64,000 nt of DNA from Acidobacteriaceae bacterium (GTDB lineage Bacteria > Acidobacteriota > Terriglobia > Terriglobales > Acidobacteriaceae): positions 1-64,000 of the forward strand of contig JASHOQ010000064.1 in the NCBI GenBank assembly GCA_030041045.1, read 5' to 3'. The position numbers and the translations under genes are program-made. How positions within the stretch are numbered: position 1 is the stretch's first letter; each line of letters opens with the position of its first letter. This document shows positions 4,366 to 61,525 of this stretch, in pieces. The notes beneath the pieces were generated by a model. The model saw only the letters and a list, made by a program, of their open reading frames with translations, ran no database searches and had not been told where the DNA came from.

Positions 4366-4570
4366 GCGGTAGTGGCTCAGTCTGAAGGGTTCGGGCCTTC
4401 GCCCGTACGCGTGCGGCAGAAACAAATGGGGGCTTTAGGCTGTGTCTGACGAATATCGACGGCTGGTTTTGTAACAAGGGCACGGCTTTAGCCGGGCCGT
4501 AGACGGCGCAAAATGTAAACAGGCTTCAGCCCCTGAGGGATGATCCTTTCGAACTGACCACTACCCGGAA
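4366..4570. repeat. Interspersed palindromic repeats between GH1 gene and mtnA
   Basis: Contains an imperfect GGGTTCGGGCCTTCGCCCGTA hairpin near 4388, then GGGCACGGCTTTAGCCGGGCC (4478-4498) and CAGGCTTCAGCCCCTGAGGG (about 4520-4540). This is the undisturbed form of the unit interrupted at 2461. No coding sequence is seen. Confidence 0.75.
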
Positions 4571-16211: not shown

Positions 16212-16295
16212 CGCGGTCTTGTAAAAGGGCACGGCTTCAGCCGTGCCGCAAAACGCCCCAAAACGCAGGGGTTTTAACCCCTGCGGCGCGATGCG
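16212..16295. repeat. Interspersed palindromic repeat
   Basis: GGCACGGCTTCAGCCGTGCC (perfect hairpin, about 16229-16248), then GCAGGGGTTTTAACCCCTGC (16265-16284). Same class as the units after ftsB-like and M23 genes. Confidence 0.8.
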
Positions 16296-20895: not shown

Positions 20896-20995
20896 GGCGT
20901 TTTGAAAGGGCTTGGCTTCAGCCGTGCCGCAAATCGAGCGAAACGTGAAAGGGCTTTAGCCCCCGAGGGATGTTTTTAACAAATTGGGACACTAC
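20896..20995. repeat. Interspersed palindromic repeat after the FtsB-like gene
   Basis: GGGCTTGGCTTCAGCCGTGCC (20909-20929), then AAAGGGCTTTAGCCCCCGAGGGATG, flanked by the imperfect inverted pair TAGTGTCCTAATT / AATTGGGACACTA (20879-20891, 20983-20995), which may mark the ends of the whole unit. Confidence 0.75.
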
Positions 20996-28215: not shown

Positions 28216-28242
28216 TTGCTGTCGTGCGGGACTGGCAAGAGC

Positions 28243-28352
28243 ATCCCGTAGGGATGCAGGAAAATAGCCCAGGATGAAGTTCGCCGCAGCGAACGAAATC
28301 CTGGGAAGCAGGAGCAAAAAGAACCTCGAGCCCCGTAGGGGCGATGGAATCG
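28243..28352. repeat. CATCCCGTAGGGATG / CCCCGTAGGGGCG repeat
   Basis: GCATCCCGTAGGGATGC, then AATAGCCCAGGATGAAG, AATCCTGGGAAG and GAGCCCCGTAGGGGCGATGG. It is the best preserved member of this class and almost identical in layout to 52030-52150. Confidence 0.8.
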
Positions 28353-28423
28353 GGCCAACGCCCTCACATCGCGTGCTCAGGCAGAAGTTTTCTCTAAGCC
28401 CTCAATCAACTTGTCCGGCTGCA

Positions 28424-28977: not shown

Positions 28978-29045
28978 GTCAGGGCACGACTTCAGTCGTG
29001 CCGAAAGCGGCAAGAAAAAGAACGGGGCTTCAGCCCCTGAACACA
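28978..29045. repeat. Interspersed palindromic repeat
   Basis: GGGCACGACTTCAGTCGTGCC (28982-29002) with compensatory changes keeping the stem paired, then GGGGCTTCAGCCCCTGAAC (29024-29042). Confidence 0.8.
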
Positions 29046-30635: not shown

Positions 30636-30703
30636 GGATTCAGCGGTTGAAGATGGTCTCATTTTCCTCATTCCCCTCGCGCCCTCACTCCCTTGTTCCC
30701 TTG

Positions 30704-30786
30704 CTCCCTATTCCTTGCTTCCTACTCCCTACTCCCTACTCCCTACTCCCTATTCCCTACTCCCTATTCCCTACTCCCTATACCCT
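30704..30786. repeat. Tandem heptamer repeat CTCCCTA/TTCCCTA
   Basis: About ten consecutive units of the 7-mer YTCCCTA lie between the DUF6807 gene and the Gfo/Idh/MocA gene. Such telomere-like heptamers can vary in copy number by slippage. Lies within the presumed operon. Confidence 0.8.
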
Positions 30787-30790
30787 GCCT

Positions 30791-32146
30791 TTACGCAAAC
30801 ACCCTCCCGCCCGCCATCACCTGCTGCGTCTTGTCGTCGAACCTCACCTTCTCACCTGTCTGAATCGCCGCCACATTCATACAAAGTGCTATGGAGTGGC
30901 TGTAGCCTGCCTCAATGGGCGCATTGGGCGTCTTGCGGCTGCGCACGCACTCCATCCAGTTGCGCATGTTGGCGCTGGTCTGCGGGTCGCGGCCCGTGTC
31001 GGCCGCGGTCGACGCGGCCTCCACGTGTTCCATCAGCGCAAAGCTCGGCAGCTGATTCGCCTGCATATTCATCTCCGCCGCGCTCTTTGCCGTCAGCCCG
31101 CCCATCGGCGTCACCGTCTGCTTGTCCATGTCGAGCATGCCGCCGTTCGAGTAGTAAAGTTCCTTCACGCCGCCGGCCGAGTTGGTGAAGCGCGAGGTGT
31201 ACTGCACCTGGAAACCTTTCGTCAGATCGTCGAGCGGACCGTAATCGAACACCGCCGTCATCGTGTCCCAGTTTTTGCGCCCGTCCTTCCACAGGTAAAT
31301 GCCGCCGTTGGCCACGCACGAGCGCGGATGCGGCAGGCCCGTAAACCAGTGCACGGTATCAATCTGGTGCACCAGCCACTGGTCGGGAATGCCCGACGAG
31401 TATGGCCAGAACAGTCGGAACTCAAGATACTTGCGCGCATTGAACGGTTCGTACGGCCGGTTCATGAGGTAGCGCCTCCAGTCCGTGTCCTCTTCCTTGA
31501 GCAGCGGCACCACGTCCGGCCTGCGCCAGCGTCCCGGCTGGTTTACGTTCCACGTCATCTCCACCATCACGATGTCGCCGAACTGCCCGCTCTGGATGTA
31601 CTCGGCCGCCTTCTGGTACGCAGGCGTCGATCGCCGCTGCGTGCCCACCTGCACAATCTTGCCCGTCTTCTTCACCGCAGCCAGAAACTTCCGCGCATCC
31701 GCCATGGTGTGCGCCGTGGGTTTTTCCACGTACGCATCGCGTCCCGCTTCCACTGCCTCCAAGCCGTGCAGCGCGTGTTGAAAATCGGCCGTCGCAATCA
31801 GCACCGCATCCACGTCTTTGCGCGCATAGAGCTCGTCGTTGTTGCGCACCGCGTCCACCTTGCCGCCGCCCAGCTTTTCGATATAGGCCGCGCCGTCCTC
31901 GCGCCGCTTGTTCCAGATGTCGCTCACGGCCACAAACTCAAAGTTGAGCTCCTGCGCGTGCTCCAGGAAGGCCGGAATCAACGAACCCTTCATGCGGTCG
32001 CCCGCGCCCACCACGGCCACGCGCACGCGATCATTGGCGCCCGGAATCTGCCCGTAGCTCTTGGCGCTCCAATTCACTGCGGTCGCGGCCAGCGCCGCGC
32101 TGCCGGTCTTCAAAAATTCCCTGCGATTGCTTTCAAGTGGTGCCAT
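30791..32146 (-). CDS. Gfo/Idh/MocA family oxidoreductase, Tat-exported
   Basis: 451 aa from ATG 32146 (GGAGG 7-8 bases upstream). The N-terminus SNRREFLKTGSAALAATAVNW is a Tat signal. The NAD(P)-binding fold is VRVAVVGAGDRMKGSLIPAFLEH, with the strand DVDAVLIATADFQHALHGLEAVEAGRDAYVEKPTAHTM carrying the EKP motif. The catalytic-domain segment IPDQWLVHQIDTVHWFTG is present. Members oxidise or reduce sugars and related alcohols with a tightly bound NAD(P). It heads the unit with the DUF6807 gene; a heptamer repeat starts right at its 3' end. Confidence 0.9.
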   Translation of the reverse strand: MAPLESNRREFLKTGSAALAATAVNWSAKSYGQIPGANDRVRVAVVGAGDRMKGSLIPAFLEHAQELNFEFVAVSDIWNKRREDGAAYIEKLGGGKVDAVRNNDELYARKDVDAVLIATADFQHALHGLEAVEAGRDAYVEKPTAHTMADARKFLAAVKKTGKIVQVGTQRRSTPAYQKAAEYIQSGQFGDIVMVEMTWNVNQPGRWRRPDVVPLLKEEDTDWRRYLMNRPYEPFNARKYLEFRLFWPYSSGIPDQWLVHQIDTVHWFTGLPHPRSCVANGGIYLWKDGRKNWDTMTAVFDYGPLDDLTKGFQVQYTSRFTNSAGGVKELYYSNGGMLDMDKQTVTPMGGLTAKSAAEMNMQANQLPSFALMEHVEAASTAADTGRDPQTSANMRNWMECVRSRKTPNAPIEAGYSHSIALCMNVAAIQTGEKVRFDDKTQQVMAGGRVFA

Positions 32147-33432: not shown

Positions 33433-33536
33433 GCCAAGCCGTCCCGGAGGGACGACTGGAAATTAGCCCAGGGTGGAGCGTCAGCGGAACCCTGGGAAAG
33501 GATCCAGAGCGGATGATTCGCGCCCGTAGGGGCGCA
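33433..33536. repeat. GTCCCGGAGGGAC / CCCGTAGGGGCG repeat
   Basis: GTCCCGGAGGGAC (33443-33455), AATTAGCCCAGGGTGG, GGAACCCTGGGAAAG, CGCCCGTAGGGGCGCAG. Occupies most of the gap between the VOC gene and the rpmI promoter. Confidence 0.75.
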
Positions 33537-33562
33537 GCGAGCGCTCGGCTTGCTGCGCGAAT

Positions 33563-34920: not shown

Positions 34921-34937
34921 TCGACTTGCACCGGCTA

Positions 34938-35050
34938 AAGCATTTTCTGAGTAGCTATATCCCGAAGACGGAAAGCAGAGTCGACGCGACCAACAGGGAG
35001 CGGCGACCTTGCGAAGGAACGAAGAGGACACAGTAACTCAGAAAATGCCG
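34938..35050 (+). mobile_element. 113-bp MITE-like element, copy 2 (in a stop codon)
   Basis: Flanked by CTAA (left) and GTAA (right), so TA lies immediately outside both ends. The GCATTTTCTGAGT / ACTCAGAAAATGC terminal repeats and the inner GAAGACGGAAAGCAGAGTCG are shared with copy 3. On the minus strand it interrupts the 3' end of the alpha/beta hydrolase gene. Joining the flanks at TA restores GGT GGT TAG, so the original stop codon was the target, and the present stop (TGA) lies in the element. Confidence 0.85.
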
Positions 35051-36048
35051 TAACCACCCAGAAACCCATTCACCGCCTTCTGCCACATCTCCGGCTGATC
35101 CACAAAATTCATGTGCCCCGCGTTGGGAAAAATCACCAGCTTCGATCCCGCAATCTTCTCGTGCATCTCCCTGGCTAAACTCGGATCGCACTCATCGTGG
35201 TCGCCGACCAGAATCAGCGTGGGCACGTGAATCGTCGGCAGCCGGTCCACCCACTCCACCGATTTCAAATTCCCATCAATCACGAACTCCCCGTCCGATC
35301 CCCACATCTCACGGTAAAGCTCCCAGTTCGTGGGCGCGTTGCCTTGAGCCGGATCGTAATTCGCATCCGGCCGCGCGCCGTAAAGAAACTTGAAATACCC
35401 GTCGCCCCACGCCAGCGTCTCGTACTCGGCCGGGTAGCGCCCGTGCTCCCACGCCGCGCCCTTGTCAAACAGGCCGGCCTGCTCCAGCTGATTCAGCCGC
35501 GCCAGTTTGTCCGGAGGCATCTGCGCCTTCTCGCGCGCCAGCACTTCGTTCATCTCGCGCGTGGAAGCAAAGGTGCTGTTGAGGATCAGGTGGTCCAGGT
35601 GCTGCTGGTACTTGAGCGCGTATGCCTCCGCCAGCACGCCGCCGCAGCTGTGTCCCAGCAGGTCGATCTTGCCCAAACCCAGCGCCACGCGCACCGCCTC
35701 CACGTCGTCCGCCATGTTTTCGATGGTGTACTGGCTCGCATCCTGCAGGCGTTCCGATTGGCCCGACCCGCGCTCGTCGATAAAGATGAGCCGGTGCGTG
35801 CGCGCCAGCGGGAGCAGCCAGGGCAGAAAGTAAGTGTGGTCGGCGCCGGGGCCGCCGTGCAGCACCACGAGCGGCGGACCTTTGCCGAACTCGGCGTAAT
35901 AGATGAGCACGCCACGCGCGTCAACGTAGCCGGACTGCTGCGGGTATACGTTGGGCGCGGTCTGCGCGGGCGCCGGCGCCCCAAGCGCAACGCAGACCCC
36001 GGCCATTGCCAGAGCAAGAACAAATCGCTGGAGTTTCATGGCAATCAT
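35038..36048 (-). CDS. Exported alpha/beta hydrolase, proline iminopeptidase-like (S33)
   Basis: 336 aa. The signal peptide follows MIAM (KLQRFVLALAMAGVCVALGAPAPAQ). Motifs are VVLHGGPGADHTYF (oxyanion), FIDERGSGQSERL, the nucleophile elbow GHSCGG, the acid in LVGDHDECDP and the His in FPNAGHMNF. This is the layout of S33 prolyl aminopeptidases and related esterases; the substrate is not certain. The last residues YGIF and stop TGA come from the inserted 113-bp element, four residues beyond the reconstructed ancestral stop. It is divergent from hicA. Confidence 0.88.
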   Translation of the reverse strand: MIAMKLQRFVLALAMAGVCVALGAPAPAQTAPNVYPQQSGYVDARGVLIYYAEFGKGPPLVVLHGGPGADHTYFLPWLLPLARTHRLIFIDERGSGQSERLQDASQYTIENMADDVEAVRVALGLGKIDLLGHSCGGVLAEAYALKYQQHLDHLILNSTFASTREMNEVLAREKAQMPPDKLARLNQLEQAGLFDKGAAWEHGRYPAEYETLAWGDGYFKFLYGARPDANYDPAQGNAPTNWELYREMWGSDGEFVIDGNLKSVEWVDRLPTIHVPTLILVGDHDECDPSLAREMHEKIAGSKLVIFPNAGHMNFVDQPEMWQKAVNGFLGGYGIF

Positions 36049-46796: not shown

Positions 46797-47969
46797 ATGC
46801 CCAGTTCCACTATTTCTTATCTTTGGAGCGATAAAGACGCCTGCGCCGGGTTTCGCACCGGCGTTTCTCTGCACAGCCACACCAACCAGTCCCAGGAGAC
46901 GCTCGACTTTCTCGCCAACTTCGGCAACCAGTTTCCCGTCGTCCGCCCGCTCATGGCGCTCCTCGAGCGCCGCGCCGAGCAGCTTCATGGCATCCGCGTG
47001 GACTACGCCGCCAGCTACTGGACGCCGCCCATGACGCCCCGCCTGGCCTTCGATCTCGAAAGCCGCCAGATTGAAAAGCTCAACCTCGCTTCCATGGTTT
47101 CCATCACTGACCACGACAACATCCGCGCGCCCATGCTCCTGCGCACCATTTCCAGCGCGCGCCGCATTCCCGTCAGCGTCGAATGGAGCGCGCCCTACGG
47201 CGGCGCGCAGTCCTTCCACCTGGGCGTGCACAACCTGCCCAGCGCCAGGGCCGCGCAGTGGATGGAAACCCTCGCCGCCTACACCGCGCACCCTGAAGAC
47301 GCGCGCCTCACTGAGATTCTCTCCGCGCTCGACAGGGAGCCAGGCGTGCTCGTCGTCTTCAACCACCCCATGTGGGATCTCTACCTGGTGGGCAAAGAGA
47401 AACATCAATTCCTGGTCAATGAATTCCTGCAGAAAAACGGGGCCTTTCTTCACGCGCTCGAGCTCAACGGCCTGCGCAACTGGGATGAGAACCGCGCCGT
47501 CCGCCGCCTGGCCGAGCGCTGGAACATGCTGCTCATCGCCGGCGGCGACCGCCACGGCGTGGAGCCCAACGCCGCCATCAACCTCACCAACGCCGCCAGC
47601 TTCACCGAATTCGTCTACGAGATCCGCCGCAGCAAGCAGAGCAACGTGCTCTTCCTGCCCCAGTACGCCGAGCCATGGAAGCACCGCATCCTGCAATCGA
47701 CCATTGACGCCGTGCGCCACTATCCCGAATTCCCCCCGGGTTCGCGCACCTGGGACGAGCGCACCTACCACCCCGATGCCCACGGCGTAATGCGTCCGCT
47801 CACTGAGATCTGGCCCAAAGGCCGCGCGCCCTATTCGATTGCCGCCGTCATCGGCGCCGTGCAGATGATGGGCCGTGGACTGGTGGCCGGCGGCTTGCGC
47901 ATGGCCTGGAACGACGCGCACAATCTGCGCCTGGCCCTGGGCGACACCGGCAGCAAGTTGGCGAGTTAG
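46797..47969 (+). CDS. PHP-domain metal-dependent phosphoesterase
   Basis: 390 aa from ATG 46797 (GGGGGAGG upstream). PHP metal motifs are visible: VSLHSHTNQS (H-x-H), SITDHDNIRA, VVFNHPMWD and GGDRHGVEPN. These belong to the superfamily of histidinol-phosphatase and polymerase-associated phosphoesterases that use two or three metal ions. The substrate is unknown. The last codons (GSKLAS, stop) lie in an AGCAAGTTGGCGAGTTAGCG repeat that fills the gap to the downstream glycosyltransferase gene. The pair may act in polysaccharide or lipid-linked sugar metabolism. Confidence 0.85.
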   Translation: MPSSTISYLWSDKDACAGFRTGVSLHSHTNQSQETLDFLANFGNQFPVVRPLMALLERRAEQLHGIRVDYAASYWTPPMTPRLAFDLESRQIEKLNLASMVSITDHDNIRAPMLLRTISSARRIPVSVEWSAPYGGAQSFHLGVHNLPSARAAQWMETLAAYTAHPEDARLTEILSALDREPGVLVVFNHPMWDLYLVGKEKHQFLVNEFLQKNGAFLHALELNGLRNWDENRAVRRLAERWNMLLIAGGDRHGVEPNAAINLTNAASFTEFVYEIRRSKQSNVLFLPQYAEPWKHRILQSTIDAVRHYPEFPPGSRTWDERTYHPDAHGVMRPLTEIWPKGRAPYSIAAVIGAVQMMGRGLVAGGLRMAWNDAHNLRLALGDTGSKLAS

Positions 47970-48238
47970 CGGGTCAGCAAGTCAGCGAGTCGGCAAGTTA
48001 ACCGGCTCGCCAGTCGGCAAACAAGGGAGCCACGGCGTCAGGAATGGGGAAGCAACGAATGTCGGTTGTCATCCTGAGCGAAGTCCGCCGCGGCGGACGG
48101 AGTCGAAGGACCTGCTGTGGCCTTTTTTGATCGCATCGGACATCGTTTCTGCATGAGCCTCGCCAACCCGCCAACTCGCGACCGTCCGCCGCAGGCGGAC
48201 GCTAACTTGCTAACTTGCTGACTCGCTGACTCGCTCTT
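47952..48238. repeat. AGTTAGCAAGTCAGCGAGT repeats plus TGTCATCCTGAGCG unit
   Basis: Two inverted arrays of a 7-8 bp motif (GTCAGCAAG/GTCAGCGAG at 47955-48020; CTTGCTGACTCGCTGACTCG at 48205-48235) flank a TGTCATCCTGAGCGAAGTCC...GTCGAAGGACCTGCTGT unit (48068-48118) with a GTCCGCCGCGGCGGAC palindrome. The right array abuts the glycosyltransferase ATG. No gene. Confidence 0.75.
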
Positions 48239-49888
48239 ATGACCTTCCCCCGCGTCGCCTTCTTCCCTGACTCCTTCCACGAAGTCAACGGCGTTGCCCT
48301 CACCAGCCGCCAGTTTGAAGCCTTCGCGCGCCGCCGCAACCTCCCCTTCCTCTGCGTGCGCGCCGGCGACCGCGCCCAGGCCGTCACCGAAGAAGGCAGC
48401 GTGTGGACTCTCGAGCTCCCGCGCGGCTTCCTCTCCTTTGCCCTCGAGAAAGACCTGCGCTTCGATCCCGCCTATCTCCGCCACATCCCCCTCATCGGCG
48501 AAGTGCTCGAGCGTTTTCAGCCGGAGCTGATCCACATCACCGGCCTCAGCGAAATCGGCATGCTCGGCGCGGGCCTCGCCCATCATCTCGAAGTCCCGCT
48601 CGCCGCCAGCTGGCACACCAACGTGCACGAGTACCTGGTGCGCCGCTCGGACTGGTTCCTGCGGCTCTTGCCCGAGCGGCAATCCGCGGCCACGGCACGC
48701 AAGCTTGAAGACCTGGCCCTGGCCACAGCCGCATTCTTCTATTCGGGCGCACGCGTCCTCTTCGCGCCCAACCCCGATCTCTGCCGCAAGCTCGCCGAGC
48801 TCACCGGCCGCCCCTGCCATCTCATGTCCCGCGGCGTCGACGCCGACCTCTTCAACCCGTCCAAGCGCTCATCGAGAGCGCCTGACCCCGGAGTGGCTGG
48901 CCTCGAACCGACGGCAGACTCCGAACCCGCGGCCTTGTCTGAGGGCACGGCTTCGCTGCCCGCCCCAAAGCTCGACGCCTTGAAAGGGCACGAGTTCACT
49001 CGTGCCGCAACCGGCGCAAATGGAGACCCGGCTTTAGCCGCTGAGGGAAGTTTTTTCCCCCGCGCACCCGCGGACTCGGGGACGGTGGTCTTGTATCAGG
49101 GCACTGCTTCACCGGGGTCCCCAACAAGCGATTTCGGCTTGTTGGGGTGGTCTTCAGCCGCGCCGAACGACGCGACAACTGAAGACGGCGTTTTAGCCCC
49201 CGGGCTCCCGGAGGGAGCCATCGAAAATAGCCCAGGACAACCCCGACCCCGACCTCGAGCGGAGCGAGAGGGAGAGGGAGGGGGCAGTCCTGGGAATGCG
49301 GCAAGAGAAATTCCTCCGAGCCCCGTAGGGGCGACGGAACCTTCTGAATTCATCCTCGGCTTCGTCGGCCGCCTCTCCGTCGAAAAAAACATCGCCCTCC
49401 TCGTCGATCTGGAACGCGAACTTCCACGCCTGGGCGTTATCAATTTCCGCTTCCTCATCGTCGGCCACGGCGGCGACGAAGCCTGGCTCCGCGCGCGTTT
49501 GCGTCGCGCCGAATTCACCGGCGTGTTACGAGGTGAGGCCCTCGCCCGCGCCTACGCCCGCATGGACCTCTTCGTCTTCCCCTCGCATACTGACACCTTC
49601 GGCAACGCCGTGCTCGAAGCGCAGTCGAGCGGCGTGCCCGCCATCGTCACTCCCGACGGTGGTCCCAAAACCATCGTGCGTGACGGCGAAACCGGCCGCG
49701 TCGTTCCCGACGAAGAATTCGCACCCGCCATCGCGGCCATCCTCGCCAACCCCGGGCAGCACGCGCAGATGCGCCTCGCCGCCCGCGCCCGCGCCGAAAA
49801 AGCCAATTGGGACGCCGTCTTCGAGTCCGTCTATGCAGCGTATGAACTTCACCTGCTCCTGAAGGGAGAGAGCATCGCAGCCGGATAG
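48239..49888 (+). CDS. GT4 glycosyltransferase with repeat-derived linker
   Basis: 549 aa; family members are about 380-400. The N-terminal Rossmann domain (MTFPRVAFFPDSFHEVNGVALTSRQFEAFA ... ASWHTNVHEYLVRR, 1-205) and the C-terminal domain (FILGFVGRLSVEKNIALL, MDLFVFPSHTDTFGNAVLEAQSSGVPAIV, 371-540) are intact, with the donor-site E-x7-E region in TFGNAVLEA. Between them residues about 212-369 are translated from four interspersed repeat units with no stop codon. The relatives transfer sugars from GDP/UDP donors to lipids. The ATG directly follows a repeat and has no visible ribosome site, so translation may depend on the upstream PHP gene or a leaderless start. Confidence 0.85.
   Translation: MTFPRVAFFPDSFHEVNGVALTSRQFEAFARRRNLPFLCVRAGDRAQAVTEEGSVWTLELPRGFLSFALEKDLRFDPAYLRHIPLIGEVLERFQPELIHITGLSEIGMLGAGLAHHLEVPLAASWHTNVHEYLVRRSDWFLRLLPERQSAATARKLEDLALATAAFFYSGARVLFAPNPDLCRKLAELTGRPCHLMSRGVDADLFNPSKRSSRAPDPGVAGLEPTADSEPAALSEGTASLPAPKLDALKGHEFTRAATGANGDPALAAEGSFFPRAPADSGTVVLYQGTASPGSPTSDFGLLGWSSAAPNDATTEDGVLAPGLPEGAIENSPGQPRPRPRAEREGEGGGSPGNAAREIPPSPVGATEPSEFILGFVGRLSVEKNIALLVDLERELPRLGVINFRFLIVGHGGDEAWLRARLRRAEFTGVLRGEALARAYARMDLFVFPSHTDTFGNAVLEAQSSGVPAIVTPDGGPKTIVRDGETGRVVPDEEFAPAIAAILANPGQHAQMRLAARARAEKANWDAVFESVYAAYELHLLLKGESIAAG
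48872..49345. repeat. Cluster of four interspersed repeats inside the glycosyltransferase gene
   Basis: Units in order are GAGGGCACGGCTTCGCTGCCC (about 48940), GGGCACGAGTTCACTCGTGCC with CGGCTTTAGCCGCTGAGGG (48985-49046), GGGCACTGCTTCA...GCCGCGCC with GGCGTTTTAGCCCCCG (49099-49202), and GGCTCCCGGAGGGAGCC, TAGCCCAGGAC, CAGTCCTGGGAATG, GAGCCCCGTAGGGGCGACGG (49202-49340). A 40-bp hairpin (49112-49151) is nested in the third. Confidence 0.85.
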
Positions 49889-51444: not shown

Positions 51445-51685
51445 TTGAAGGGTACGCGCCTTCACAGGATGCGGAAAAACTCACCTCATGGGGTTTTGTA
51501 ACAAGGGCACGGCTTTAGCCGGGCCGATAAAGGCAACGAAATGATCGGGGCTTCAGCCCCTGCGGCTTCTTCGTTCATAATCAGCTGCAAATTTGGAATT
51601 TTTCCGCAACCTCCTCAGCCCGTACGTCGATTCGCGAAGAACGGTCGAGGCCTTCGGTCCCTGAGGGATCTTTCACTCAAACTGA
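51445..51685. repeat. Interspersed palindromic repeats, most of the 51406-51900 gap
   Basis: Contains GGGCACGGCTTTAGCCGGGCC (51505-51525), then ATCGGGGCTTCAGCCCCTGCGG (about 51544-51564) and a decayed GGTCCCTGAGGGATC unit near 51656. This is the same composite as 2440-2650 without the 113-bp insertion. Confidence 0.75.
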
Positions 51686-51900: not shown

Positions 51901-52059
51901 ATGAAAGTTGTCTTGTACGGTGCTTCCGGCATGATCGGTAGTCGCCTTCTCAAGGAGCTCTTGTCTCGCGGGCACCAGGTAACTGCGGTCGTGCGCAATC
52001 CCGGCAACATCGCCGCTCCGGGCGCGCGGCAAGCGCATCCCGGAGGGATGCGAGGATAA
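51901..52059 (+). pseudogene. Truncated NAD(P)-binding (NmrA/SDR-like) gene
   Basis: A good ribosome site (AGGAG, 7 bases) precedes ATG 51901. MKVVLYGASGMIGSRLLKELLSRGHQVTAVVRNPGNIAAPGA is the first 42 residues of an atypical SDR/NAD(P)H-binding protein with its GASGxIGxxLxxxLLxRGH nucleotide fold. At about 52027 the sequence turns into a CATCCCGGAGGGATG repeat and stops at TGA/TAA within it. The remaining roughly 160 residues are absent downstream. Confidence 0.75.
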
Positions 52060-52155
52060 TAGCCCAGGATGGAGTCCGCTGCGGCGGAGGCAATCCTGGG
52101 AAGCGCGCATAAACAAGAACTCCCGAGCCCCGGAGGGGCGATGGAACCGGGCCAC
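52030..52155. repeat. CATCCCGGAGGGATG / CCCCGGAGGGGCG repeat
   Basis: GCATCCCGGAGGGATGC, AATAGCCCAGGATGGAG, AATCCTGGGAAGCG, GAGCCCCGGAGGGGCGATGG. Closely parallel to 28243-28350. It directly abuts the truncated NmrA-like gene fragment. Confidence 0.8.
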
Positions 52156-54723: not shown

Positions 54724-54797
54724 GAAAGGGCACGGCTTCAGCCGTGCCGCCAGACCCGCATAAACATTGGGCTTTAGCCCCTGAGGGAAGTTCCTTG
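54724..54797. repeat. Interspersed palindromic repeat after the M23 gene
   Basis: GGGCACGGCTTCAGCCGTGCC (perfect stem, 54729-54749), then TTGGGCTTTAGCCCCTGAGGGAAGTTCC (54766-54795). Confidence 0.8.
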
Positions 54798-57185: not shown

Positions 57186-57457
57186 ACGGGAACGGGTGCC
57201 CCAGGTTCGGCGCGTTCTTGTTTTTGCGCCTAGCCTGGGGAACCACAATCCTTAATTTGCGGCTCTCAATTCAGCACGAACCTTGGGTGCCCCATCCTAA
57301 ACGCGGATACCGGGGCCCCCACGGACAGGTCTTGGTCCGTGGGGTGGTTGAGCGTTTAGGGTGGGAGAGCAATGACCCCCGCTCGCCCCCGCCAACTCGC
57401 AAACCTGCCAACGTCCGCCGCAGGCGGACGCTAACTCGCTAACCCGCTCGCCCCCGC
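57186..57457. repeat. Mosaic of GGTGCCCCA repeats and AGTTAGCG-type array
   Basis: GGTGCCCCAGGTTCGGCGCG...CGCCTAGCCTGGGGAACC (57189-57244) is followed by GGGTGCCCCATCCTAAACGC...GCGTTTAGGGTGGGAG (57288-57368). A hairpin with ends CCGGGGCCCCC/GGGGTGGT (57310-57348, stem CCACGGAC/GTCCGTGG) is nested in the latter. An array around GTCCGCCGCAGGCGGAC with CTAACTCGCTAACCCGCTCG comes last (57398-57450). Confidence 0.75.
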
Positions 57458-59756: not shown

Positions 59757-61384
<1,628 letters not shown>

Positions 61385-61385
<1 letters not shown>

Positions 61386-61497
61386 AGCATTTTCTGAGTA
61401 GCGATATCCCGAAGACGGAAAGCAGAGTCGACGCGACCAACAGGGAGCGGCGACCTTGCGAAGGAACGAAGAGGACACAGTAACTCAGAAAATGCCC
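61385..61497 (+). mobile_element. 113-bp MITE-like element, copy 3 (in a stop codon)
   Basis: TA at 61383-61384 and TA at 61498-61499 flank it. Joining the flanks restores CGC TAG CGC, so the element entered the original TAG stop codon of the kinase gene, and its first A makes the present TAA. Nearly identical to copy 2 (about 4 differences by eye). Confidence 0.85.
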
Positions 61498-61525
61498 TAG
61501 CGCCTGAAGCTCGAGGCATCTCCTG

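Follow-up and report, generated by a model that had tools for sequence, protein, structure and literature searches.

What is the long stretch of protein that separates the two domains of a glycosyltransferase encoded in the window (the whole 64,000-nucleotide stretch of acidobacterial DNA that was analysed), and how did it come to be there? The reading frame is uninterrupted from end to end and its product matches three Pfam families (PF13439, PF00534, and PF13692), with the GT4 N-domain at residues 68–203 and Glycos_transf_1 at residues 369–517. Both Rossmann-like domain profiles score above the Pfam cut-offs and the structures found by Foldseek are GT-B enzymes, the best match to the model being MshA (3c4q, E 6.6e-19), placing the protein in the GT4 family with a GT-B fold. 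An AlphaFold2 model (50 sequences) has both domains folded, with pLDDT above 80 in 20 of 21 ten-residue blocks across residues 1–210 and of 83–98 in the blocks from residue 371 on, whereas residues 215–365 lie below 50 and are without secondary structure. The linker is enriched in Ala, Pro, and Gly. An earlier note, made from the DNA letters, had proposed a long disordered linker; the length stands, and the low pLDDT fits disorder, a weak indication in a model where no alignment row spans the linker.

Comparison with relatives revealed that the linker is an insertion. The interdomain stretch is 190 residues long, compared with 38 in all 24 aligned congeneric loci (L007–L030, taken from 26 orthologous loci with two partial ones omitted), a difference of exactly 152 codons, and DNA comparison with four near orthologues places the extra 456 nucleotides after residue 216 and before residue 369. 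The N-terminal domain is 59–80% identical to those 24 loci; a loose motif clipped the N termini of 21 congeneric locus sequences, leaving the compared region unaffected. A protein search of 60 genomes gave the same picture, the congeners' N-domain match (ending near residue 216) adjoining the C-domain match (from about residue 367). The spacing from RGVD to GRLS is 183 residues in the window but 29–34 in 76 of 80 acidobacterial loci, and exactly 31 in 69; three further loci (L251, L280, and L292) are short by eye and one (L279) is masked, so that no insertion was found at this site in the 79 readable loci. Because the 24-locus and 80-locus sets share loci and some genomes occur twice in the second, their counts should be neither summed nor taken as numbers of genomes.

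Much of the earlier note is upheld by these comparisons. It had described a frame free of stop codons, two domains that keep their motifs (as Pfam, the folded domains, and the alignment agree), relatives that join the domains by a short link, and a repeat-bearing region at 48872–49345 (residues 212–369), which is accurate to within a few codons. Comparing orthologues for length and repeat content, as it had suggested, found the long linker in the window gene alone among the readable loci. Its description of the region as a repeat trap finds no support in the same evidence, and the interdomain site was rejected as an insertion hot spot; several units accumulated there in this one genome.

Interspersed repeats account for the linker, as the earlier note had also claimed. 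Two covariance models, R1 for unit 2 (from 11 copies) and R2 for unit 1 (from six window copies), were built with the GT4 and ileS copies excluded, and each identified a unit in the linker (Table 1). Of the four palindromic units originally proposed, three (B, C, and D) are clear and the fourth (A) is only weakly matched. Unit B encodes the peptide KGHEFTRA...ALAAEG. Within the stretches around repeat matches, blastn finds unit C at four further sites (E 3.9e-12 to 3e-7), of which two have nearly identical surroundings. The unit contains an 11-bp perfect inverted repeat (49119–49147); the nucleotides that follow it (49174–49199) resemble the 3′ end of unit 1, without a significant match. Unit D encodes LPEGAIENSPGQ...SPVGATEP and shares its reading frame with the unit-2 copy of ileS.

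Table 1. Coordinates of the GT4 gene, its linker, and the repeat copies in the window
Feature	Position	Strand	Evidence and remarks
GT4 (GT-B fold) glycosyltransferase gene with repeat-derived linker	48239–49888	+	549 aa; ORF, Pfam, Foldseek
N-terminal domain, residues 1–216	48239–48886	+	Identity to congeners; pLDDT
In-frame insertion, 152 codons, residues 217–368	48887–49342	+	Absent from relatives; placement ± a few codons
Unit A, truncated unit-1 remnant	48929–48966	+	blastn E 0.018 to two other unit-1 copies; weak
Unit B, unit-1 repeat, two hairpins	48985–49048	+	R2 built without it, E 1.6e-12
Unit C, unit-1 composite with internal hairpin (49111–49151)	49084–49173	+	blastn
Unit D, unit-2 repeat, three hairpins	49202–49344	+	R1 built without it, E 6.2e-15
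C-terminal GT-B domain, residues 369–549	49343–49885	+	Pfam; pLDDT
Unit-1 copy, not flagged genic	4477–4540	+	R2; in R2 training
Unit-1 copy, not flagged genic	16226–16288	+	R2; in R2 training
Unit-1 copy, not flagged genic	20907–20970	+	R2; in R2 training
Unit-1 copy, not flagged genic	28981–29044	+	R2; in R2 training
Unit-1 copy, not flagged genic	51504–51567	+	R2; in R2 training
Unit-1 copy, not flagged genic	54727–54788	+	R2; in R2 training
Unit-2 copy, not flagged genic	28240–28354	+	R1; in R1 training
Unit-2 copy, not flagged genic	33438–33545	+	R1, E 4.1e-11
Unit-2 copy, not flagged genic	52034–52151	+	R1; in R1 training

Across the genome at least 66 unit-2 and at least 141 unit-1 matches (at least 207 in total, some overlapping) were identified, 150 candidates having been scored in each covariance search, which makes both counts lower bounds. 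The repeats are of high copy number and mostly intergenic, as REP-type elements are: 19 of the 140 assessed unit-1 matches were counted as genic, the remaining one of the 141 (C52:64179) lying beyond the window and being left out. An Rfam scan of the window returned three tRNAs and no repeat family. Two arrangements among the copies may be recorded here. At 2448–2626 a unit-1 copy encloses a small element whose 13-bp inverted ends lie at 2464 and 2560, and the copy at 51504–51567 is a similar twin of that unit-1 copy without the element. G000:C36:79563–79927 is a tandem array of four overlapping unit-2 model matches at a spacing of 86 bp.

Taken together, these data make it very probable that non-autonomous palindromic elements of the REP type, stacked in-frame in the interdomain loop, make up the linker; they would be survivors of purging that are unstructured in the protein and leave the enzyme intact. 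On this reading the elements entered the loop between the two GT-B domains in-frame, and RAYT-family Y1 (HUH) transposases, acting in trans on single-stranded DNA, probably mobilised unit 1. Most genic insertions would be purged; those that persist would be in-frame and free of stop codons, would mostly run in the sense direction, and would lie in loops able to accommodate additional residues. These copies would be translated as an unstructured Ala/Pro/Gly-rich peptide that does not wreck the enzyme, and a loop that had tolerated one unit could receive more beside it or inside it, up to the 152 residues of the GT4 protein.

The GT4 gene is not the only host. For 135 stretches around repeat matches the coding potential of both flanks was scored in six frames, followed by Pfam scans, and 21 matches (19 unit-1 and 2 unit-2) were found in-frame within 17 ORFs that carry Pfam domains, so that in-frame insertion recurs in 17 unrelated genes, as it does with the palindromic elements of Rickettsia. 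The hosts are GT4, IleS, ArgS, MnmG, MnmE, RecN (SMC_N), RecO, PRAI (TrpF), Thy1 (ThyX), LpxK, a DinG-like helicase, Lhr (two matches), a radical-SAM methylthiotransferase, an ABC exporter (two matches), a homocysteine S-methyltransferase, a CCG iron-sulfur protein, and a family-21 glycosyltransferase, where names beyond the Pfam labels are our reading of the sequences. Most cases came from a codon-score screen and a looser pass, and five unit-1 matches (RecO, both in Lhr, the sense match in the ABC exporter, and that in the methylthiotransferase) were taken by eye from a weaker list. Excluded from the count were C117:56773, C121:8798, and the plus-strand ORF of L099, which have no Pfam domain, and C117:17429 (unit 2, antisense). 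Eight further ORF-internal matches were left uncounted, most lying near predicted gene starts that may be mis-called (C35:71399, C41:1724, C122:34852, C40:23830, C36:123163, C126:104254, C62:73001, and C118:87500). The case for insertion comes from orthologue comparison in GT4, IleS, and MnmG and from pairwise comparison in MnmE and the ABC exporter; in the remaining 12 hosts, repeat identity together with Pfam domains in the same ORF points to it. Outside the 17, a unit-1 peptide match at G000:C138:30300–30377 is open over 966 codons and is perhaps another host.

Relatives carry repeats in the same loops. At residues 612–720 of IleS, a site covered by 22 of 24 relative loci, 21 of the 22 lack an insertion (15–34 residues), compared with 108 residues in this genome and 70 in G009, whose unit-1 peptide is a different one (QGTTSVVP...ALTPV). 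A second IleS loop (295–320) has 44–65 residues in four congeners and 24–34 in the other 20 loci; three of the four long loops hold peptides of the APGPSHLGT or APGPDSxTW type, also present in this genome's MnmG and here called unit 4, a putative unit known from peptides alone. In MnmG the loop at residues 128–200 is 24–85 residues long across 14 congeneric loci, compared with 29–43 across the nine loci of the sister family, and the motif of this genome's unit-1 peptide was seen in none of the 24 relative loci. The MnmE loop that bears a unit in this genome holds several KGH-type units in G009. The shared-site insertions of G009 (IleS and MnmE) may be either independent or inherited. In the ABC exporter, G013 and this genome have one unit in common at the same position, and this genome bears a second, antisense unit next to it; this looks like accretion. 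Several congeners also carry GTGNREQG-like peptides in MnmG residues 128–200 (L330–L353) that look like the products of 7-bp tandem arrays of the kind found at 30685–30796 in the window.

A peptide profile (A5), built from 12 of the 13 frame-1 peptides with that of the CCG protein omitted, matches 19 of 31 genomes, comprising all 19 in the genus and none of 12 in the sister family. Unit 1 itself was found in 36/36 genomes of the genus, 0/14 of the sister family, and 3/10 others. From 30 A5 loci in relatives, 11 ORFs were read and 10 scanned, chosen mainly for long frames and with L365 (unit N-terminal) omitted; nine of these ten have Pfam domains, including those of AlaS, UvrC, Der, MnmE, ThyX, and a radical-SAM methylthiotransferase. 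The GT4 linker is one case of a genus-wide habit and not a lone oddity, a breadth that the earlier note had missed.

The genic copies are biased in direction and frame. Seventeen of the 19 genic unit-1 matches are read in the sense direction (p 0.005 against the 59.5% of coding bases within 2.5 kb that a simple ORF caller makes co-oriented; p 0.0004 against one half). Among the sense copies, 13 use frame 1, 4 use frame 2, and none uses frame 0, whereas the numbers of open copies among the 121 not counted as genic are 39, 23, and 34 for frames 1, 2, and 0. Frame 1 is therefore used in genes above the expectation from openness (p 0.003, from small numbers that include five cases taken by eye and ignore kinship). 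Selection for frame is an inference from counts of in-frame insertions. In the 121 non-genic copies the antisense frames are about as open as the sense frames (shares of 0.08, 0.58, and 0.43 versus 0.29, 0.48, and 0.42). It is conceivable, though we think it rather unlikely, that the repeats of this genus have evolved to be gene-compatible, their sense frame (VLKGHDFSRA...ALAPEG) being kept open and harmless so that they colonise loops as well as gaps; if so, they would be a running supply of portable disordered linkers across the proteome.

The frame bias would also be expected of a functional spacer, that is, a flexible tether or an interaction surface kept by positive selection, and such a role would suit a linker that is long, open over all of its codons, and rich in Ala, Pro, and Gly. 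The same peptides, however, occur in unrelated enzymes (IleS, RecN, LpxK, MnmG, and others), which argues against a use specific to GT4, and the linker is missing from the 79 readable acidobacterial loci. Its codons are moreover unadapted: under a codon table derived from 292 long ORFs (of the window and the stretches around repeat matches), the linker scores −0.14 bits per codon and the domains +0.47 and +0.46. A selected spacer is accordingly improbable.

The poor codon usage of the linker is equally what would be seen in a decaying pseudogene that the repeats entered once constraint was lost. Two usually invariant residues of the GT4 protein are altered (H21L and P103L), private changes that tie for the highest number among 69 aligned sequences, and its mean dN to near orthologues is somewhat higher than that among those orthologues (0.184 versus 0.143). 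Four other orthologues, however, have equally many private changes, and dN/dS to near orthologues is ∼0.1–0.2 (9 of 10 pairs computable), like the median of 0.13 among the other orthologues. The domains therefore look constrained, although dN/dS cannot show constraint after the insertion because most of the GT4 divergence is older. Further evidence against decay is that 456 nucleotides were gained without a stop codon or frameshift and that ileS, with one match at E ≤ 1e-100 in a genome that is 99.6% complete, carries the same type of insertion in that very copy; mnmG likewise has a single match at the 1e-80 threshold. We regard decay as very unlikely. A misjoin within the gene, which repeats of this kind could induce in a 142-contig draft, is scarcely credible with both halves of the gene correct in order, strand, and frame, exactly 152 codons gained, and similar in-frame insertions in many genes and in other assemblies.

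The genome has ten Y1_Tnp matches, some of which are candidates for moving the elements. Inverted unit-1 copies flank a Y1 (HUH) transposase gene at two of ten Y1_Tnp loci (L053 and L058), and these two genes are candidate transposases for unit 1. At L053 (G000:C62:47675–48277) a 162-aa ORF, whose HLH and YIAQNP are similar to the HUH and tyrosine motifs that PMC6006769 lists, starts at the end of one unit-1 copy and has its stop codon inside the other, inverted copy. This Y1 gene lies immediately downstream of ileS, which itself bears a unit, and may be a case of local hopping. At L051 and L052 the unit-2-like inverted flanks are weak model matches only (25–34 bits). No inverted unit-1 or unit-2 pair is present at six of the ten loci, three of which (L054, L055, and L056) have inverted repeats of their own that differ from these units, seven of the ten loci having been examined for such repeats. 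No target-site duplication was established.

The orientation of the repeats is coherent within contigs, 188 of 207 matches following the majority of their contig compared with 146.7 expected and a maximum of 162 in 5000 shuffles. This is as expected if insertion were coupled to one strand, by analogy with IS200/IS605 elements, for which single-strand insertion at the replication fork is documented (PMC6006769). Orientation also follows negative GC skew at 172 of 206 matches, a link confounded by coding strands that look C-rich; GC skew was for that reason set aside as proof of replication-strand coupling. On contig C52 all 16 repeat matches lie on the plus strand.

Insertions of this kind are already known; what is new is the lineage, the extent, and the size. 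The Rickettsia palindromic elements (RPE; Ogata et al. 2000) are palindromes of roughly 100–150 bp that occur between genes and in-frame within many unrelated conserved genes, and the product of one of these, Gmk, is translated and active (PMC2229807, PMC10969869). The likeness is one of arrangement, palindromic repeats fused in-frame to unrelated conserved genes, whereas the phylum and genome size differ, unit 1 lies beside Y1 transposase genes, and the stack reaches 152 residues. The repeats were not filed as RPE, the nearest named GT4 orthologues being acidobacterial.

The intragenic REPs (GTAG/CGTC repeats) described in 2013 fall into two super-families with a GTAG or CGTC tag at one end and are known from several bacteria. 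Many lie in DNA repair genes and some in tRNA-related genes, with double insertions per gene, same-site insertions in Xanthomonas recB, and clusters coding for 43–82 residues (PMC3733652). REPs within ORFs, double insertions, and same-site insertions are all shared with the present repeats, but the units here are longer, have several hairpins, and stack to a longer linker. In RAYT and TIRYT systems (REPtrons and TIRtrons) a Y1 HUH transposase gene lies between inverted dispersed repeats, and an Acidobacteria TIRYT group is described that includes a Koribacter versatilis terminal inverted repeat belonging to a repeat family (PMC3733652, PMC6006769). Unit 1, inverted around a Y1 gene, is likened to these by arrangement, with the transposase as candidate mover. 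In the main text of PMC3733652, Acidobacteria come up solely in connection with transposase genes that have terminal inverted repeats, and among the open-licence papers listed, the supplementary list of PMC3733652 aside, we found neither intragenic repeats in Acidobacteria nor a repeat-built linker of 152 residues. ERIC and Correia/NEMIS are small non-autonomous repeats with open frames and gene fusions (PMC2229807). Small size, lack of autonomy, and fusion to genes are what they have in common with the units described here. Their sequences are presumably unrelated to these units, and we take their mobilising transposase to be a different one.

It has been proposed that palindromes inserted in-frame feed protein evolution; such insertions are best known from Rickettsia, which is obligately intracellular. 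Here they occur in an acidobacterial lineage with a 5.2-Mb genome, many sequenced relatives, and recurrence in the same loops; the hosts include an isoleucyl-tRNA synthetase for which no second copy was found in this genome, and transposase genes end in the repeat. Genome comparison and proteomics can now test what insertions a gene tolerates, the frame in which they are read, the way they grow, and whether any of the peptides is put to use.

Other repeats were observed in the window. A 119-nt direct repeat occurs at 34934–35052 and 61381–61499, with 98% identity and 26 kb between the copies, and 8-bp GCAAGTCA-type arrays with a paired 62-nt repeat occur at 47953–48022, 48158–48219, and 57387–57448, partly just upstream of the GT4 gene.
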